A stretch of DNA of 41,605 bases, from assembly GCA_029248105.1 (NCBI GenBank), contig JAQWJZ010000024.1:1-41605 (forward strand), in the 5' to 3' direction. The DNA comes from Flavobacteriales bacterium. GTDB lineage: Bacteria > Bacteroidota > Bacteroidia > Flavobacteriales > UBA7312. A program made the position numbers and the translations under genes. Within the stretch, counting starts at the first letter, position 1. Every line of letters begins with the position of its first letter. Under the pieces are notes generated by a model, which saw only the letters and a program-made list of their open reading frames with translations, was not told where the DNA came from and did no database searches. This document shows positions 5,768 to 33,054 of this stretch, in pieces.

Positions 5768-5794
5768 AAAAAAAAGCTGCCCACGAGGGGCAGC
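5768..5794 (-). terminator. Intrinsic terminator of rnpB
   Basis: A 7-bp GC-rich stem (GCTGCCC at 5776-5782 with GGGCAGC at 5788-5794) is followed on the minus strand by eight Ts (A-run 5768-5775). It begins 2 nt after the 3' strand of RNase P helix P1. Confidence 0.88.
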
Positions 5795-5795
5795 A

Positions 5796-6089
5796 GGTAG
5801 TAATTCATAAGCCGGATTCTGTTCTCTTTCGAGCCTCATCATTTATCTACGCTAGTTATTACTAACTAGCTTGAGCTGCCTACCCCCCGAGATTGAACGA
5901 GCAGTCCCTGTTCTCGGTATACGTGGCATTGCACCGCATAGAGTTTACCTGTTTTCACTACAGCCGAACTGTACTTGCTTTCTGCTGCACTTGTCCTCAC
6001 CTTACGGTGGACGGATGTTATCCGCTATGCTGCTCTATGGTGTCCGGACTTTCCTCTTCCTTACGAAAGCGATGAAGTCCATTACTACT
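5796..6089 (-). ncRNA. rnpB: RNase P RNA (bacterial type A)
   Basis: This is the catalytic RNA of RNase P, which trims tRNA 5' leaders. The minus strand carries both universal core blocks: near the 5' end GAGGAAAGTCCGGAC (complement of 6042-6056), and near the 3' end ACAGAATCCGGCTTAT (complement of 5807-5822). The ends pair as helix P1, GTAGTAAT (6088-6081) with ATTACTAC (5804-5797). The length of about 294 nt is on the short side for the type. An upstream TTG-N18-TACATTTG promoter and a downstream intrinsic terminator bracket it. Protein-like reading frames across this region are artefacts. Ends are set from P1 and may be off by a few bases. Confidence 0.95.
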
Positions 6090-7375: not shown

Positions 7376-9481
7376 TCAATACTCCACTCTAACGTGGTGA
7401 ATACTTTGTAATTTCTTCTTGAACAGTTTCTTAATTTGAGTAATAGACTTCATAGTAATATCAGCGTTTACAAACTGTTCGTTGTCAATTTGAGTATTGA
7501 TAATACTCTCTACTAACTTATCTATATTTTCTAGTGTAGGCGACTTCAAACTTCGTGCTGCTGCCTCTACAGAATCTGCCATCATCAAGACTGCTGTTTC
7601 CTTAGAGTACGGCTTCGGACCGGGATAGGTAAACTTCTCTGCCGCCTCGATTTCATCAGGGAAACTCGCTACATATTGCTTATAAAAATAACCCACCATA
7701 GTAGTTCCGTGATGGGTTCTGATAAAGTCAATAAGTTCGTCAGGCAAATTGTTTTCTTTAGCAATACTGATACCATTTTTGACGTGATTAATAATCACAC
7801 CAGCACTTTCTTCAAAGCTCAAATCATCGTGAGGGTTAATGCCAGAGATTTGATTTTCTATAAAAAACTGAGGGTTTTTCATTTTACCGATATCATGGTA
7901 CAATGCTCCTGCCCTTACCAATAAGGCATTACCTCCTATTTCTAAAATACCTTCTTCAGCAAGATTAGCTACTTGTATAGAGTGTTGGAATGTGCCAGGT
8001 GCTACTTGTGCCAATTCTCTAAGCAAAGGACTATTGGTGTCTGAAAGCTCCAATAATGAAACATCGGAAACGAGAGAAAAGGTTTTCTCGAAAGCAAAAA
8101 TCAACGGATAAGCAAAAAGCGTCAGAGCACCATTAGCTGCAAACCATACAAAGTTCATCCACTCAATATTGTCTAGGCTACCCTCTTGAGTAAGAGCCAT
8201 CGCAAAATAAGCCACGAAATAAATGGCTATTATCTTGGCTGCAGACACAAACAATTGCGCCCTTTTATACATCTGCAAAACAGACAAAATAGATACAATA
8301 CCTGCCATCAGTTGCAGATAAATAAACTCAAAGCTATTAGGAACAATAAAACCAATTATGATAACCGCTATTAAGTGAGTAAATAGGGCTAAACGTGTGT
8401 CAAAAAAGGCTTTTATAATAATTGGTAATAAGCAAAAGGGCATGAGAAAAATTAGCTTATTACTAGCCGTTAGCGACATGGAAGCCATAAACACCATTAA
8501 AGTAATAAGTGTCAAGATAAAAGTCACCTTTTTATTATCATTAAACACCTCAATTCTGAATTGTTTGAGAAATAAAAACAAGATTAAAAAAGCGACCAAT
8601 ACCAGAAGCGACTGACCAAAACTTAGCCAATTCTCTGAGCTTTCTTGCCAATTCTCTCCTTCATATCGCTGACGATAAGATTCTAATTCTTGAAAGTTGC
8701 TTTCTGTCACCAATTCCCCTTGTGAAATAATAACCTCACCACGCTGTACCATACCTAAACCTTTAGAAATAGCGTTAAGCTCACTCTCAAGCATTTTATT
8801 GGTAGCGTCTTCATCATAGAAAACATTTTGCTTGAGCATTTCTAATATCAATGGTGATAGAAAATTCGATTCTTCTTCAGAAATATTTTTTAAATCGTAG
8901 GCTTTTTTGGATGCCGATTCTATGGTGAATAAATCTCCTAAGCGAAGTACTTCACCGACATTTTGTTTCATGACGATAATCTCATAGTCGCTATCTTTAA
9001 ATTCAATATCGTCAACCATCTGAATAATCCCAGTAGCGTATAGATTTTGGAGAACCTTTAAGCCATAATTAGCTAATTTTTCTTTTTTGGTTTTTTTATT
9101 CTTCTTCTTATTGAGGTTAAAAAATGTAAAACGAGCATCTTTAGTAACCTTTTTGTCAGTAGCCCATTTTTGCTCAAAATTAGAGATAAATTCTTCTGCC
9201 TTGATATCATAGACAGATTCATCTAATACAAATGTGAGTTTTAGGTTATTGCGTAATTGATCTTGCTCGTCGACTAATTGCTCACTAGACTTATATACAG
9301 GAAAATCATAGGGCGCAATTAGTGTTTCGTGTAGCCAAGGTTTGCCCTTTTGAAACTCAAACTTAAATGATGCTTTGTTGGGGAACATCCAAACAATAAG
9401 GATTGTTGCCAACAGGAAAAGAACAACTTTTTGAATTTTGTAATAATTATTCCTTATTTCAGAAGGGAAGTTTAATCGCAT
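7376..9481 (-). CDS. PgpH-type 7TM-HD cyclic-di-AMP phosphodiesterase
   Basis: A membrane-bound HD-domain protein resembling PgpH/YqfF, whose characterised members hydrolyse cyclic di-AMP. After a short N-terminal anchor (about 16-33) comes a large extracytoplasmic 7TMR-HDED-like domain. A bundle of hydrophobic helices follows (about 290-470), then a cytoplasmic HD domain with FQHSIQVANLAEE, ALYHDIGKM (around residue 530), IRTHHGT and MMADSVEAA. I use the ATG at 9481 because a longer TTG-initiated reading would begin inside the promoter spacer. The protein is about 701 residues, normal for the family. It ends 1 nt from the convergent dioxygenase-like gene. Enzymatic specificity is inferred from family. 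Confidence 0.88.
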   Translation of the reverse strand: MRLNFPSEIRNNYYKIQKVVLFLLATILIVWMFPNKASFKFEFQKGKPWLHETLIAPYDFPVYKSSEQLVDEQDQLRNNLKLTFVLDESVYDIKAEEFISNFEQKWATDKKVTKDARFTFFNLNKKKNKKTKKEKLANYGLKVLQNLYATGIIQMVDDIEFKDSDYEIIVMKQNVGEVLRLGDLFTIESASKKAYDLKNISEEESNFLSPLILEMLKQNVFYDEDATNKMLESELNAISKGLGMVQRGEVIISQGELVTESNFQELESYRQRYEGENWQESSENWLSFGQSLLVLVAFLILFLFLKQFRIEVFNDNKKVTFILTLITLMVFMASMSLTASNKLIFLMPFCLLPIIIKAFFDTRLALFTHLIAVIIIGFIVPNSFEFIYLQLMAGIVSILSVLQMYKRAQLFVSAAKIIAIYFVAYFAMALTQEGSLDNIEWMNFVWFAANGALTLFAYPLIFAFEKTFSLVSDVSLLELSDTNSPLLRELAQVAPGTFQHSIQVANLAEEGILEIGGNALLVRAGALYHDIGKMKNPQFFIENQISGINPHDDLSFEESAGVIINHVKNGISIAKENNLPDELIDFIRTHHGTTMVGYFYKQYVASFPDEIEAAEKFTYPGPKPYSKETAVLMMADSVEAAARSLKSPTLENIDKLVESIINTQIDNEQFVNADITMKSITQIKKLFKKKLQSIHHVRVEY

Positions 9482-29975: not shown

Positions 29976-31880
29976 CTACTTATCTTCCTTTACTTCTTCA
30001 AAGTCCACATCAGTAACATCATCAGCTCCGTCACCATCAGCATTGGGCTGAGCAGCGCCTTCTGCACCTGGCTGTCCTTGTGTGTCTTTATACATTTCTT
30101 CAGAAGCAGCAGTCCAAGCCGCATTGATAGTTTCCATAGCTGCATCGATAGCAGCAAGGTCTTTACTTTCGTGAGCTTTTTTCAAACCTTCAAGAGCTTC
30201 TTCAATAGGCTTTTTCTTATTGTCTGATAATTTCTCACCATATTCTTTGAGCTGCTTTTCTGTTTGGAAAATCATAGCATCAGCACCATTGATTTTTTCC
30301 ACTTGCTCTTTAGCATTCTTGTCAGCATCAGCATTAGCTTCAGCTTCTTTTTTCATTCTTTCGATTTCCTCGTCAGAAAGCCCTGAAGATGCCTCAATTT
30401 TAATGTTTTGCTCCTTACCGGTAGCTTTATCTTTTGCAGAGACATTAAGTATTCCGTTAGCATCAATATCAAAAGTTACTTCAATTTGAGGTACTCCTCT
30501 CTGAGCTGGCGGAATATCAGACAATTGGAATCTACCAATAGTCTTATTATCTGCAGACATTGGTCTTTCACCCTGTAAAACATGAATATCAACAGCTGGT
30601 TGATTATCGGCAGCAGTAGAAAATACTTCTGACTTCTTAGTAGGAATAGTAGTATTAGACTCTATGAGTTTAGTCATTACTCCACCCATTGTTTCAATAC
30701 CCAAAGATAAGGGCGTAACATCTAATAAAAGAACGTCTTTTACATCTCCAGTAAGTACACCACCTTGAATGGCAGCACCAATTGCTACTACTTCATCAGG
30801 GTTTACTCCTTTAGAAGGTTCTTTACCAAAAAATTCCTTTACGACCTCTTGAATAGCTGGAATACGAGTAGAACCACCAACTAAGATAACTTCATCAATA
30901 TCACTTACTGAAATCCCAGCATCTTTTATTGCTTGCTTGCAAGGAGTAATAGTAGCTTGGATAAGTTTATCAGCTAGTTTCTCAAAGTTTGCTTTAGTTA
31001 AAGTTCTTACTAAGTGCTTAGGTCCAGAAGCTGTAGCCGTAATGTATGGCAAGTTAATTTCTGTTTGAGCACTGGAAGACAATTCTACTTTAGCTTTTTC
31101 AGCCGCTTCTTTCAATCGCTGTAAAGCCATAGGATCTTGACGTAGGTCTATATTCTCTTCGGACTTAAATTCTTCAGCCATCCAGTCGATTAAAACTTGA
31201 TCGAAGTCATCTCCTCCTAAGTGAGTATCACCGTTAGTAGATTTTACTTCGAATACACCATCACCTAATTCTAAGACTGAAATATCAAAAGTACCACCAC
31301 CTAAATCAAAAACTGCAATAGTCTTGTCTTGGTCGGCTTTATCTAGCCCATATGCTAATGCCGCTGCTGTGGGCTCATTAATAATTCTACTCACTTTCAA
31401 ACCAGCTACTTCACCAGCTTCTTTAGTCGCTTGTCGTTGTGCGTCGTTGAAATAAGCAGGAACAGTAACTACTGCTTCTTTAACTTCGTGGCCTAAATAG
31501 TCTTCAGCCGTTTTCTTCATTTTTTGAAGGATCATAGCCGAGATTTCTTGTGGCGTATACATTCTATCGTCAATTTGTACTCTAGGCGTATCGTTATCAC
31601 CTTTAACTACTTTATAAGGAACACGACCTGTCTCTTTTTGTACCTTAGAAAAAGATTCTCCCATAAATCGTTTGATAGATGCTATGGTTTTTTCTGGGTT
31701 TGTAATCGCTTGTCTTTTAGCAGGATCACCTATTTTACGCTCGCCACCTTCTACAAAGGCTACTATTGAGGGTGTTGTTCTTTTACCTTCACTATTAGGG
31801 ATAACTACAGGCTCGTTTCCTTCCATTACAGAAACACAAGAGTTCGTAGTTCCTAAATCTATTCCAATAATTTTGCTCAT
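29976..31880 (-). CDS. dnaK: Molecular chaperone DnaK (Hsp70)
   Basis: A 634-residue ATP-dependent chaperone. The nucleotide-binding domain begins [18 protein letters not shown] and contains [45 protein letters not shown] and [14 protein letters not shown]. The substrate-binding domain has [16 protein letters not shown], and the acidic C-terminus ends [10 protein letters not shown], close to the classical EEVD-like tail. dnaJ and grpE are not adjacent. The 118-nt upstream region has no CIRCE element but a strong sigma-54-like promoter, so its heat-shock control probably differs from the HrcA scheme. Confidence 0.98.
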
Positions 31881-31902
31881 GGTATATATAATTTAATTTA
31901 TA

Positions 31903-31926
31903 GCATTGTTTGCTTTACATCAATGC
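31903..31926. promoter_or_regulatory. Inverted repeat over dnaK start-site region
   Basis: GCATTG (31903-31908) and CAATGC (31921-31926) form a 6-bp inverted repeat with a 12-nt spacer. It overlaps the -12 element and covers the expected transcription start, so it could be an operator or a 5'-UTR hairpin. Confidence 0.35.
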
Positions 31927-31940
31927 AAAGCACGTGCCAA
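31923..31940 (-). promoter_or_regulatory. Sigma-54 (-24/-12) promoter of dnaK
   Basis: The minus strand reads TTGGCACG-TGCT-TTGCAT, a full match to the RpoN consensus YTGGCACG-N4-TTGCW. The -12 GC is 45 nt before the ATG, giving a leader of about 33 nt. Upstream (31960-31995) are three GACA-type repeats, TGACAG, GGACAA and TGACAG on the plus strand, that could bind an enhancer-binding activator. rpoN is outside the window. Confidence 0.75.
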
Positions 31941-31998
31941 GAGAAAACTCTATAAAAAATGACAGAAATTAAGAAAAAAATGGACAAAATGACAGGTA

Positions 31999-33054
31999 CT
32001 ATGGCTCTATAAAATTAAGCTCATCAGTAACCTCACCGTTAGCTAATTCAGTTAGAGTAGGTATATCCAGGAATTTGCCAATAGACTCGGCTTGTAATCT
32101 AGAAGAAAACACACCACGACCGTTTTCTATATTAGTGTAAGTTGGTGGATCTTGAAAAATTACTGACGGTAAATTATTAATCTCGATGTATTGGGCAACA
32201 GCTTCACCTCCCACTAAGAATCGGAAATCAATACCACCTTGCCAATAATCGTATTCGGCAAAGCCGTCTTCAAGGTTTTTAGCATTTATTCTTAGAACAT
32301 TCATATTTTCTTCTATACTATTTTTCACAAAATAATAGAAGTTATCTCCAGTAATAGCCAATTCCATACTTTGATTACCACTAGTTGATTGCGAATACAT
32401 TTGTGGAAAACTTAACTCAACGAATTTTCTGACAACATCACCACTTAAGACATTCTTTTCATAATAATAAAAACGCATGAATGGCTTGTATATCTTACCA
32501 AATCTTGAAGAAGTCCACTTTAATCTGTGTGTTCTGTACTCATTGTTTTTAAAAAACTTAATCTCATCTGTAAAACCTGGATTAATATCAAGATGTTCAA
32601 TTAAATTTGTTGAAGAACGAGCAACATAGCCAGAATTTATATTGTGTACATAGAGATGATAGGTCAAAGATTGATCAAGAGTCTCTGCAGTTATATATTC
32701 TACTGAATATTCTGTTGAAAATATGGTATCGAAGCCAGTATTAAATCTATTGTTTGTGAGATGATAATCTAACTCTATTTCTTGTAAAGTGTCACCATTA
32801 GCATCCAAACCATAAAGTAAAACCTCTAATTGGTTCTCAGCATAATAAAAAGAGTCAGCCTCTTGTGCCATAGTGTAAGCACTTTCTTCTCCCAAAAATG
32901 CTTTGTAAATTACTACACGCTGAGTGTCAGCCGTTTGATCTAGTAGACCATATATAACTGCTGTTTCTTTCCAAGGTGCATTTACATCAAAATCGGTCTC
33001 ACAAGCAAACAAAATACTCAATGCAAAAACACACAAATAGTAACTTTTTTTCAT
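31999..33054 (-). CDS. DUF4249-like outer-membrane lipoprotein
   Basis: A 351-residue lipoprotein with signal sequence and lipobox ILFAC. Right after the lipid cysteine comes ETDFDVNAPWKETAVIYGLLDQTADTQ, the usual opening of DUF4249-like Bacteroidota lipoproteins. The end has PPTYTNIENGRGVFSSR, also typical. It probably sits on the outer membrane. No TonB receptor is adjacent here, unlike the copy at 2679. A TAAATTTG promoter element ends 5 nt before the ATG. It ends 118 nt before the dnaK start codon. Confidence 0.78.
   Translation of the reverse strand: MKKSYYLCVFALSILFACETDFDVNAPWKETAVIYGLLDQTADTQRVVIYKAFLGEESAYTMAQEADSFYYAENQLEVLLYGLDANGDTLQEIELDYHLTNNRFNTGFDTIFSTEYSVEYITAETLDQSLTYHLYVHNINSGYVARSSTNLIEHLDINPGFTDEIKFFKNNEYRTHRLKWTSSRFGKIYKPFMRFYYYEKNVLSGDVVRKFVELSFPQMYSQSTSGNQSMELAITGDNFYYFVKNSIEENMNVLRINAKNLEDGFAEYDYWQGGIDFRFLVGGEAVAQYIEINNLPSVIFQDPPTYTNIENGRGVFSSRLQAESIGKFLDIPTLTELANGEVTDELNFIEP

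Follow-up and report, generated by a model that had tools for sequence, protein, structure and literature searches.

Comparative analysis of a 41,605-nt stretch of a Flavobacteriales genome (the window) established that its dnaK gene lies behind a predicted sigma-54 promoter with a predicted activator operator upstream, that both elements are conserved in relatives, that they recur as a regulon in the same genome, and that they are lost jointly with rpoN and the gene for an enhancer-binding protein (EBP) in some insect symbionts. The best explanation as a whole is that sigma-54 (RpoN) and a PspF-like EBP control dnaK and this regulon, which we consider probable, and from these comparisons it is very likely that RpoN is used at the dnaK promoter. 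The elements concerned are as follows.

29976..31880, minus strand: dnaK coding sequence, 634 aa (HSP70, PF00012, 884 bits)
31924..31940, minus strand: sigma-54 promoter TTGGCACG-TGCT-TTGCA, with its GG at 31938-31937 and its GC at 31926-31925
31913, minus strand: predicted transcription start, 12 nt past the -12 GC, placed from the promoter position
From 31913: predicted dnaK 5' leader of about 33 nt, likewise placed from the promoter
31982..31994, minus strand: predicted activator operator TGTCATTTTGTCC, centre at about -75, kept in same-genus genomes and backed by the operator statistics
31960..31964, minus strand: predicted second activator half-site TGTCA, centre at about -49, 30 bp from the first
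31903..31926: inverted repeat GCATTG-N12-CAATGC spanning the start, probably a chance feature, with a left arm that relatives do not share
31999..33054, minus strand: upstream gene, 351 aa, an open reading frame with no Pfam match that ends just before the operator

Read on the minus strand, 31940-31924 is TTGGCACGTGCTTTGCA, which agrees with the sigma-54 consensus wherever that is constrained and lies 43 nt upstream of the dnaK ATG (31880). The sequence-only reading had recognized this match but carried its end one base too far, to 31923. The site is the sole consensus match with no mismatches in the 1.74-Mb genome and the sole match in the window even when two mismatches are allowed, a threshold at which the whole genome gave 58 matches vs 27 for a reversed control pattern. 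The three GACA-type repeats that had been reported were found where they were claimed to be (TGACAG at 31960-31965, GGACAA at 31982-31987, and TGACAG at 31990-31995), and two of them make one 13-bp operator at 31982-31994. The position of the TGTCA half-site is kept in G034, G022, G008, G043, and G075. A 6-12-6 inverted repeat is also present, but a role for it at the start site is not supported, and the repeat probably arose by chance, since same-genus genomes do not retain its left arm. The reported lack of a CIRCE element held, with no match in the window at up to three mismatches. No sigma-A box (TAnnTTTG) occurs in the 130 bp upstream of dnaK, and neither sigma-70-type promoters nor terminators were found in 31800-32200. 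Away from the dnaK region, an RNA family scan of the window matched only RNase P (class A RNA, 5793-6088) and one tRNA gene (173-247), both on the minus strand.

Conservation was assessed in dnaK upstream regions from 80 Bacteroidota contigs and from genomes of the same genus, family, and order, using the pattern TGGCAY-N5-TTG within 300 bp. Among 126 other regions, from which rpoN-less symbionts were left out, the pattern was present before dnaK in 114 under strict and 123 under relaxed matching, against a shuffled mean of 0.34 and no match on the opposite strand or with the reversed control. Removal of near-copies left it in 91 of 102 regions, and its end mostly lies 40-60 nt upstream of the dnaK ATG. 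The arrangement had been read as a trait of this lineage; it is instead general in Bacteroidota. The fixed columns of the site alignment are fixed by the search pattern itself, whereas the base after TTG is free to vary and was A in 61, T in 33, C in 18, and G in 10 of 122 regions. Of the GG and GC dinucleotides that had been expected to be conserved, the GG and the G of the -12 element are kept, but the C is found in just 18 of the 122. The TTGC of this genome is therefore closer to the textbook sigma-54 consensus than the corresponding bases of most relatives. A same-genus genome, G022 (L203, L314), contains an extra copy of both dnaK and groES, and the second dnaK carries its own sigma-54-type site, ATGGCATACTAATTGAC.

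In the genome itself, TGGCAY-N5-TTG has 43 matches vs 11 for reversed controls. Eight matches are intergenic, as judged on loci of about 3 kb, and five of these are immediately upstream of dnaK, groES, grpE, lon, and htpG; a sixth stands before a 101-aa open reading frame and two have no clear target. DnaK, Lon, GrpE, and Cpn10 were confirmed by Pfam, and HtpG was recognized from its sequence alone. Envelope stress had been suggested as an inducer of dnaK along with heat shock, and it is unsupported because this analysis recovered cytosolic chaperones and proteases as targets, with no envelope gene among the regulon matches. The 101-aa open reading frame (L185:1199-1504, minus strand, contig C37) has no Pfam match over the cut-off; it has the sigma-54 site ATGGCATGATTTTTGTT upstream together with the operator TGACATTTTGACT and is a candidate addition to the regulon. 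The groES site (L119, in the secG-groES gap at about 8379-8494) falls within an inverted repeat, AAAAAGTGTG...CACACTTTTT, which could terminate the upstream operon. Site and inverted repeat overlap in this way in G008 too, and also in G022 and G034, where the arms are shorter.

Each GACA repeat corresponds to a half-site of a 13-bp operator, TGNCA-N3-TGNCA, from which the dnaK copy at 31982-31994 differs by one mismatch. The operator was read first as TGAC-N5-GTCA, a form that was dropped in favor of TGNCA-N3-TGNCA, which also covers the TGTCA..TGACA and TGCCA variants. In relatives, the sequence upstream of the sigma-54 sites holds 342 copies of TGNCA vs 59 in shuffles, and pairs spaced 8 bp apart number 54 vs 0.29 in shuffled sequence. 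Further spacing peaks recur every 10-11 bp or so, as expected of a protein confined to a single face of the DNA helix. At up to one mismatch the operator is present in 113 of 123 regions (5.4 shuffled), exactly so in 54 (0.37 shuffled), and in 90 of 100 after removal of near-copies. Six of the seven promoters of the genome itself carry it at this threshold, compared with 0.22 when shuffled, and none of 500 shuffles reached six. The one promoter with a sigma-54 site and no such operator is that of lon; those of the other chaperone genes have operators with one mismatch.

We found a single rpoN gene (454 aa; PF04552, 178.6 bits) and a single full sigma-54 activator of 384 aa in the genome. The activator has an AAA+ domain that begins at residue 13 (PF00158, 231.9 bits), a lid, and a Fis-type helix-turn-helix, or HTH (HTH_8, 57.4 bits), and both its Walker A motif (GESGVGKE) and its GAFTGA loop are intact. 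Pfam detected no N-terminal sensor or regulatory domain before the AAA+ domain. The protein is thus PspF-like and sensor-less, with the AAA+ and DNA-binding HTH that characterize a bacterial enhancer-binding protein, and the dnaK promoter likewise combines -24 GG and -12 GC spacing, conservation in relatives, and a genome with rpoN, as a sigma-54-dependent promoter should. The gene of the EBP falls in the order miaB-EBP-lptE-TPR gene-secG-groES-groEL, in which gene names were assigned by inspection of the open reading frames, and in 22 genomes the EBP gene adjoins miaB and the HTH recognition segment is invariant. A perfect operator lies 8 nt before the sigma-A box TAATTTTG of the miaB-EBP operon, and this pairing recurs with small changes in G022, G034, G008, G043, G011, G052, G267, and G300. 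It was not found before miaB in the tiny symbionts G016, G289, G312, G313, and G311 (L323-L327), which keep the EBP gene. Because the protein is the sole EBP, its HTH segment is invariant in those 22 genomes, and the operator stands at its own gene, it is likely that this EBP binds TGNCA-N3-TGNCA. The perfect operator next to the sigma-A box further leads us to predict autorepression, so that the EBP likely represses its own operon. PspF is known to repress its own gene.

Insect symbionts allow the fate of these elements to be followed together. The family that contains Blattabacterium-type symbionts has rpoN in 55 of 68 genomes. Each of five rpoN-positive symbionts of about 0.3 Mb (G016, G289, G311, G312, and G313) has exactly one EBP, and all five retain the dnaK site, with an exact match in three and a single-base departure in G016 and G311. 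None of the 13 rpoN-less insect symbionts has the dnaK sigma-54 site, and their nearest operator has at least three mismatches. No EBP was found in 12 of them (G249, G294, and G301-G310). The thirteenth, G234, has one EBP on a doubtful contig with other odd matches, and since its sister G249 has none, this EBP was set aside as possible contamination. A GroEL tree requires at least two independent losses. The groES site follows the same trend as dnaK in those symbionts where the groES start could be placed, and it was not found in G313. A point against the main reading is that the rpoN-less symbionts are extremely AT-rich, a composition that erodes any site. Apparent absences of rpoN in incomplete drafts (e.g., G075, G105, G164, G198, and G223) were not used as controls. 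G267 (L170, L270) is discordant; it is estimated to be 100% complete and keeps the dnaK site and two EBPs, but rpoN was not found, which reflects either a draft assembly gap or a real exception.

The proposal that dnaK is driven by RpoN and an activator is strongly supported by these results: rpoN and a full activator are each encoded once in the genome, the site and repeats are kept phylum-wide, the same arrangement precedes groES, grpE, and htpG (lon having no clear operator), and site, rpoN, and activator disappear jointly in symbionts. In Flavobacterium psychrophilum, a mapped start with a sigma-54 motif before dnaK has been reported (PMC9723704). As we envisage it, RNA polymerase with RpoN would wait as a closed complex at 31940-31924, and the PspF-like EBP would bind both the operator (31982-31994) and the half-site (31960-31964), opening the complex by ATP hydrolysis. 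RpoN and the EBP would also drive groESL, grpE, htpG, lon, and probably the 101-aa open reading frame, and this chaperone and protease set would thereby form the cytosolic heat-shock regulon of the lineage. At its own operon, the EBP would bind beside the sigma-A box and act as a repressor. The sensor-less EBP may be held inactive by DnaK or GroEL and freed when misfolded proteins titrate the chaperone. Heat is a plausible signal; chaperone titration as the switch is a guess and the most speculative step.

Could the promoter match be a chance resemblance, with dnaK not a sigma-54 gene at all? At up to two mismatches, about one match is expected by chance in the window, but conservation, the regulon, the joint loss, and the mapped starts in a relative (PMC9723704) contradict this idea and leave it hardly credible. 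A more substantial alternative is that the sigma-54 promoter is used while some other regulator, such as a repressor or a different co-activator, binds the TGNCA operators, and that the EBP acts either with no specific DNA binding or through other sites. We infer the binding of the EBP to the operator from sequence, the operator also stands beside a sigma-A promoter in a repressor-like position, and lon combines a sigma-54 site with no clear operator, all of which this alternative would accommodate. Yet in genomes with a single EBP the operator is found not only before sigma-54 promoters but also at the gene of the EBP itself; it is absent before dnaK where rpoN and the EBP have been lost. EBPs, moreover, usually act from phased repeats upstream of a -24/-12 promoter, and we regard the involvement of another regulator as distinctly improbable.

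It is also conceivable, although unlikely, that the sigma-54 promoter is constitutive or answers to a different stress, and that dnaK owes its heat induction to RNA stability, to read-through from the upstream gene, or to a sigma-A promoter that escaped notice. In favor of this, the EBP lacks a sensor domain, the neighboring gene upstream, which has the same orientation, stops at 31999 with no terminator found between it and dnaK, and the sigma-54 genes of F. psychrophilum respond to several conditions, having been reported as induced on blood agar and by osmotic stress, plasma, and freshwater, and not specifically by heat (PMC9723704). Against this, TAnnTTTG is missing before dnaK here and occurs in only 3 of the 126 regions, and the targets are the classical heat-shock set.

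Control by RpoN and the PspF-like EBP may extend well beyond this genome. One sensor-less activator encoded beside groESL could be the master heat-shock regulator of most Bacteroidota, acting via sigma-54 at dnaK, groESL, grpE, htpG, and lon, autorepressed through the same operator and switched by chaperone availability, which would explain rpoN in symbionts of 0.26-0.6 Mb. We offer this generalization tentatively, with slightly more doubt than belief. If it is true, chaperone need would explain why rpoN is retained in Blattabacterium, Uzinura, and Walczuchella-type symbionts, so far linked to nitrogen; the Walczuchella authors considered RpoN retention unusual and tied it to nitrogen (PMC3971599). 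Sigma-54 at flavobacterial chaperone promoters is known, yet no activator was assigned in the work we found, and a genome with a single activator permits a clean assignment and yields a concrete operator, regulon, and feedback loop.

Sigma-54 control of dnaK is not new, because it is already known from the starts mapped in F. psychrophilum and indicated by phylum-wide predictions, to which the present promoter adds. In F. psychrophilum, starts with the sigma-54 motif SM4 were mapped at groESL, lon, dnaK, grpE-dnaJ, and htpG, and the SM4 operons form one co-expression cluster (Guerin et al. 2021, PMC9723704). The same five operons and the same -24/-12 motif are found here, and an EBP-lptE transcription unit is also listed there, with locus tags neighboring groES-groEL. 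The two systems differ in that F. psychrophilum has three PF00158 proteins, with no activator assigned and no operator described in the portions of that paper available to us, whereas here there is one EBP and a defined operator; EBP-lptE is, in addition, listed there with an SM5 promoter. The phylum-wide predictions (PMC12316311, 2025) report that GroEL, GroES, GrpE, DnaJ, DnaK, and IbpA are enriched for sigma-54 promoters in Bacteroidota, most highly in Flavobacteriia, and cite a 2009 Blattabacterium paper for grpE and groES; the accessible text, unlike our analysis, gives no activator, operator, or co-loss analysis. The activator assignment, the operator, and the joint loss were not found in the openly licensed papers searched and appear new, although the 2009 Blattabacterium paper may hold part of the symbiont argument.

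Like Escherichia coli PspF, the EBP combines an AAA+ domain and a Fis HTH with no N-terminal regulatory domain. The Psp system, however, is an envelope response held in check by PspA, whereas the targets here are cytosolic chaperone genes and there is no known PspA-like partner. Sigma-32 (RpoH) and HrcA/CIRCE govern the same kind of genes, and chaperone feedback may be a further parallel; in contrast to both, the window has no CIRCE element, and its dnaK promoter is of the -24/-12 type and is predicted to depend on an activator.
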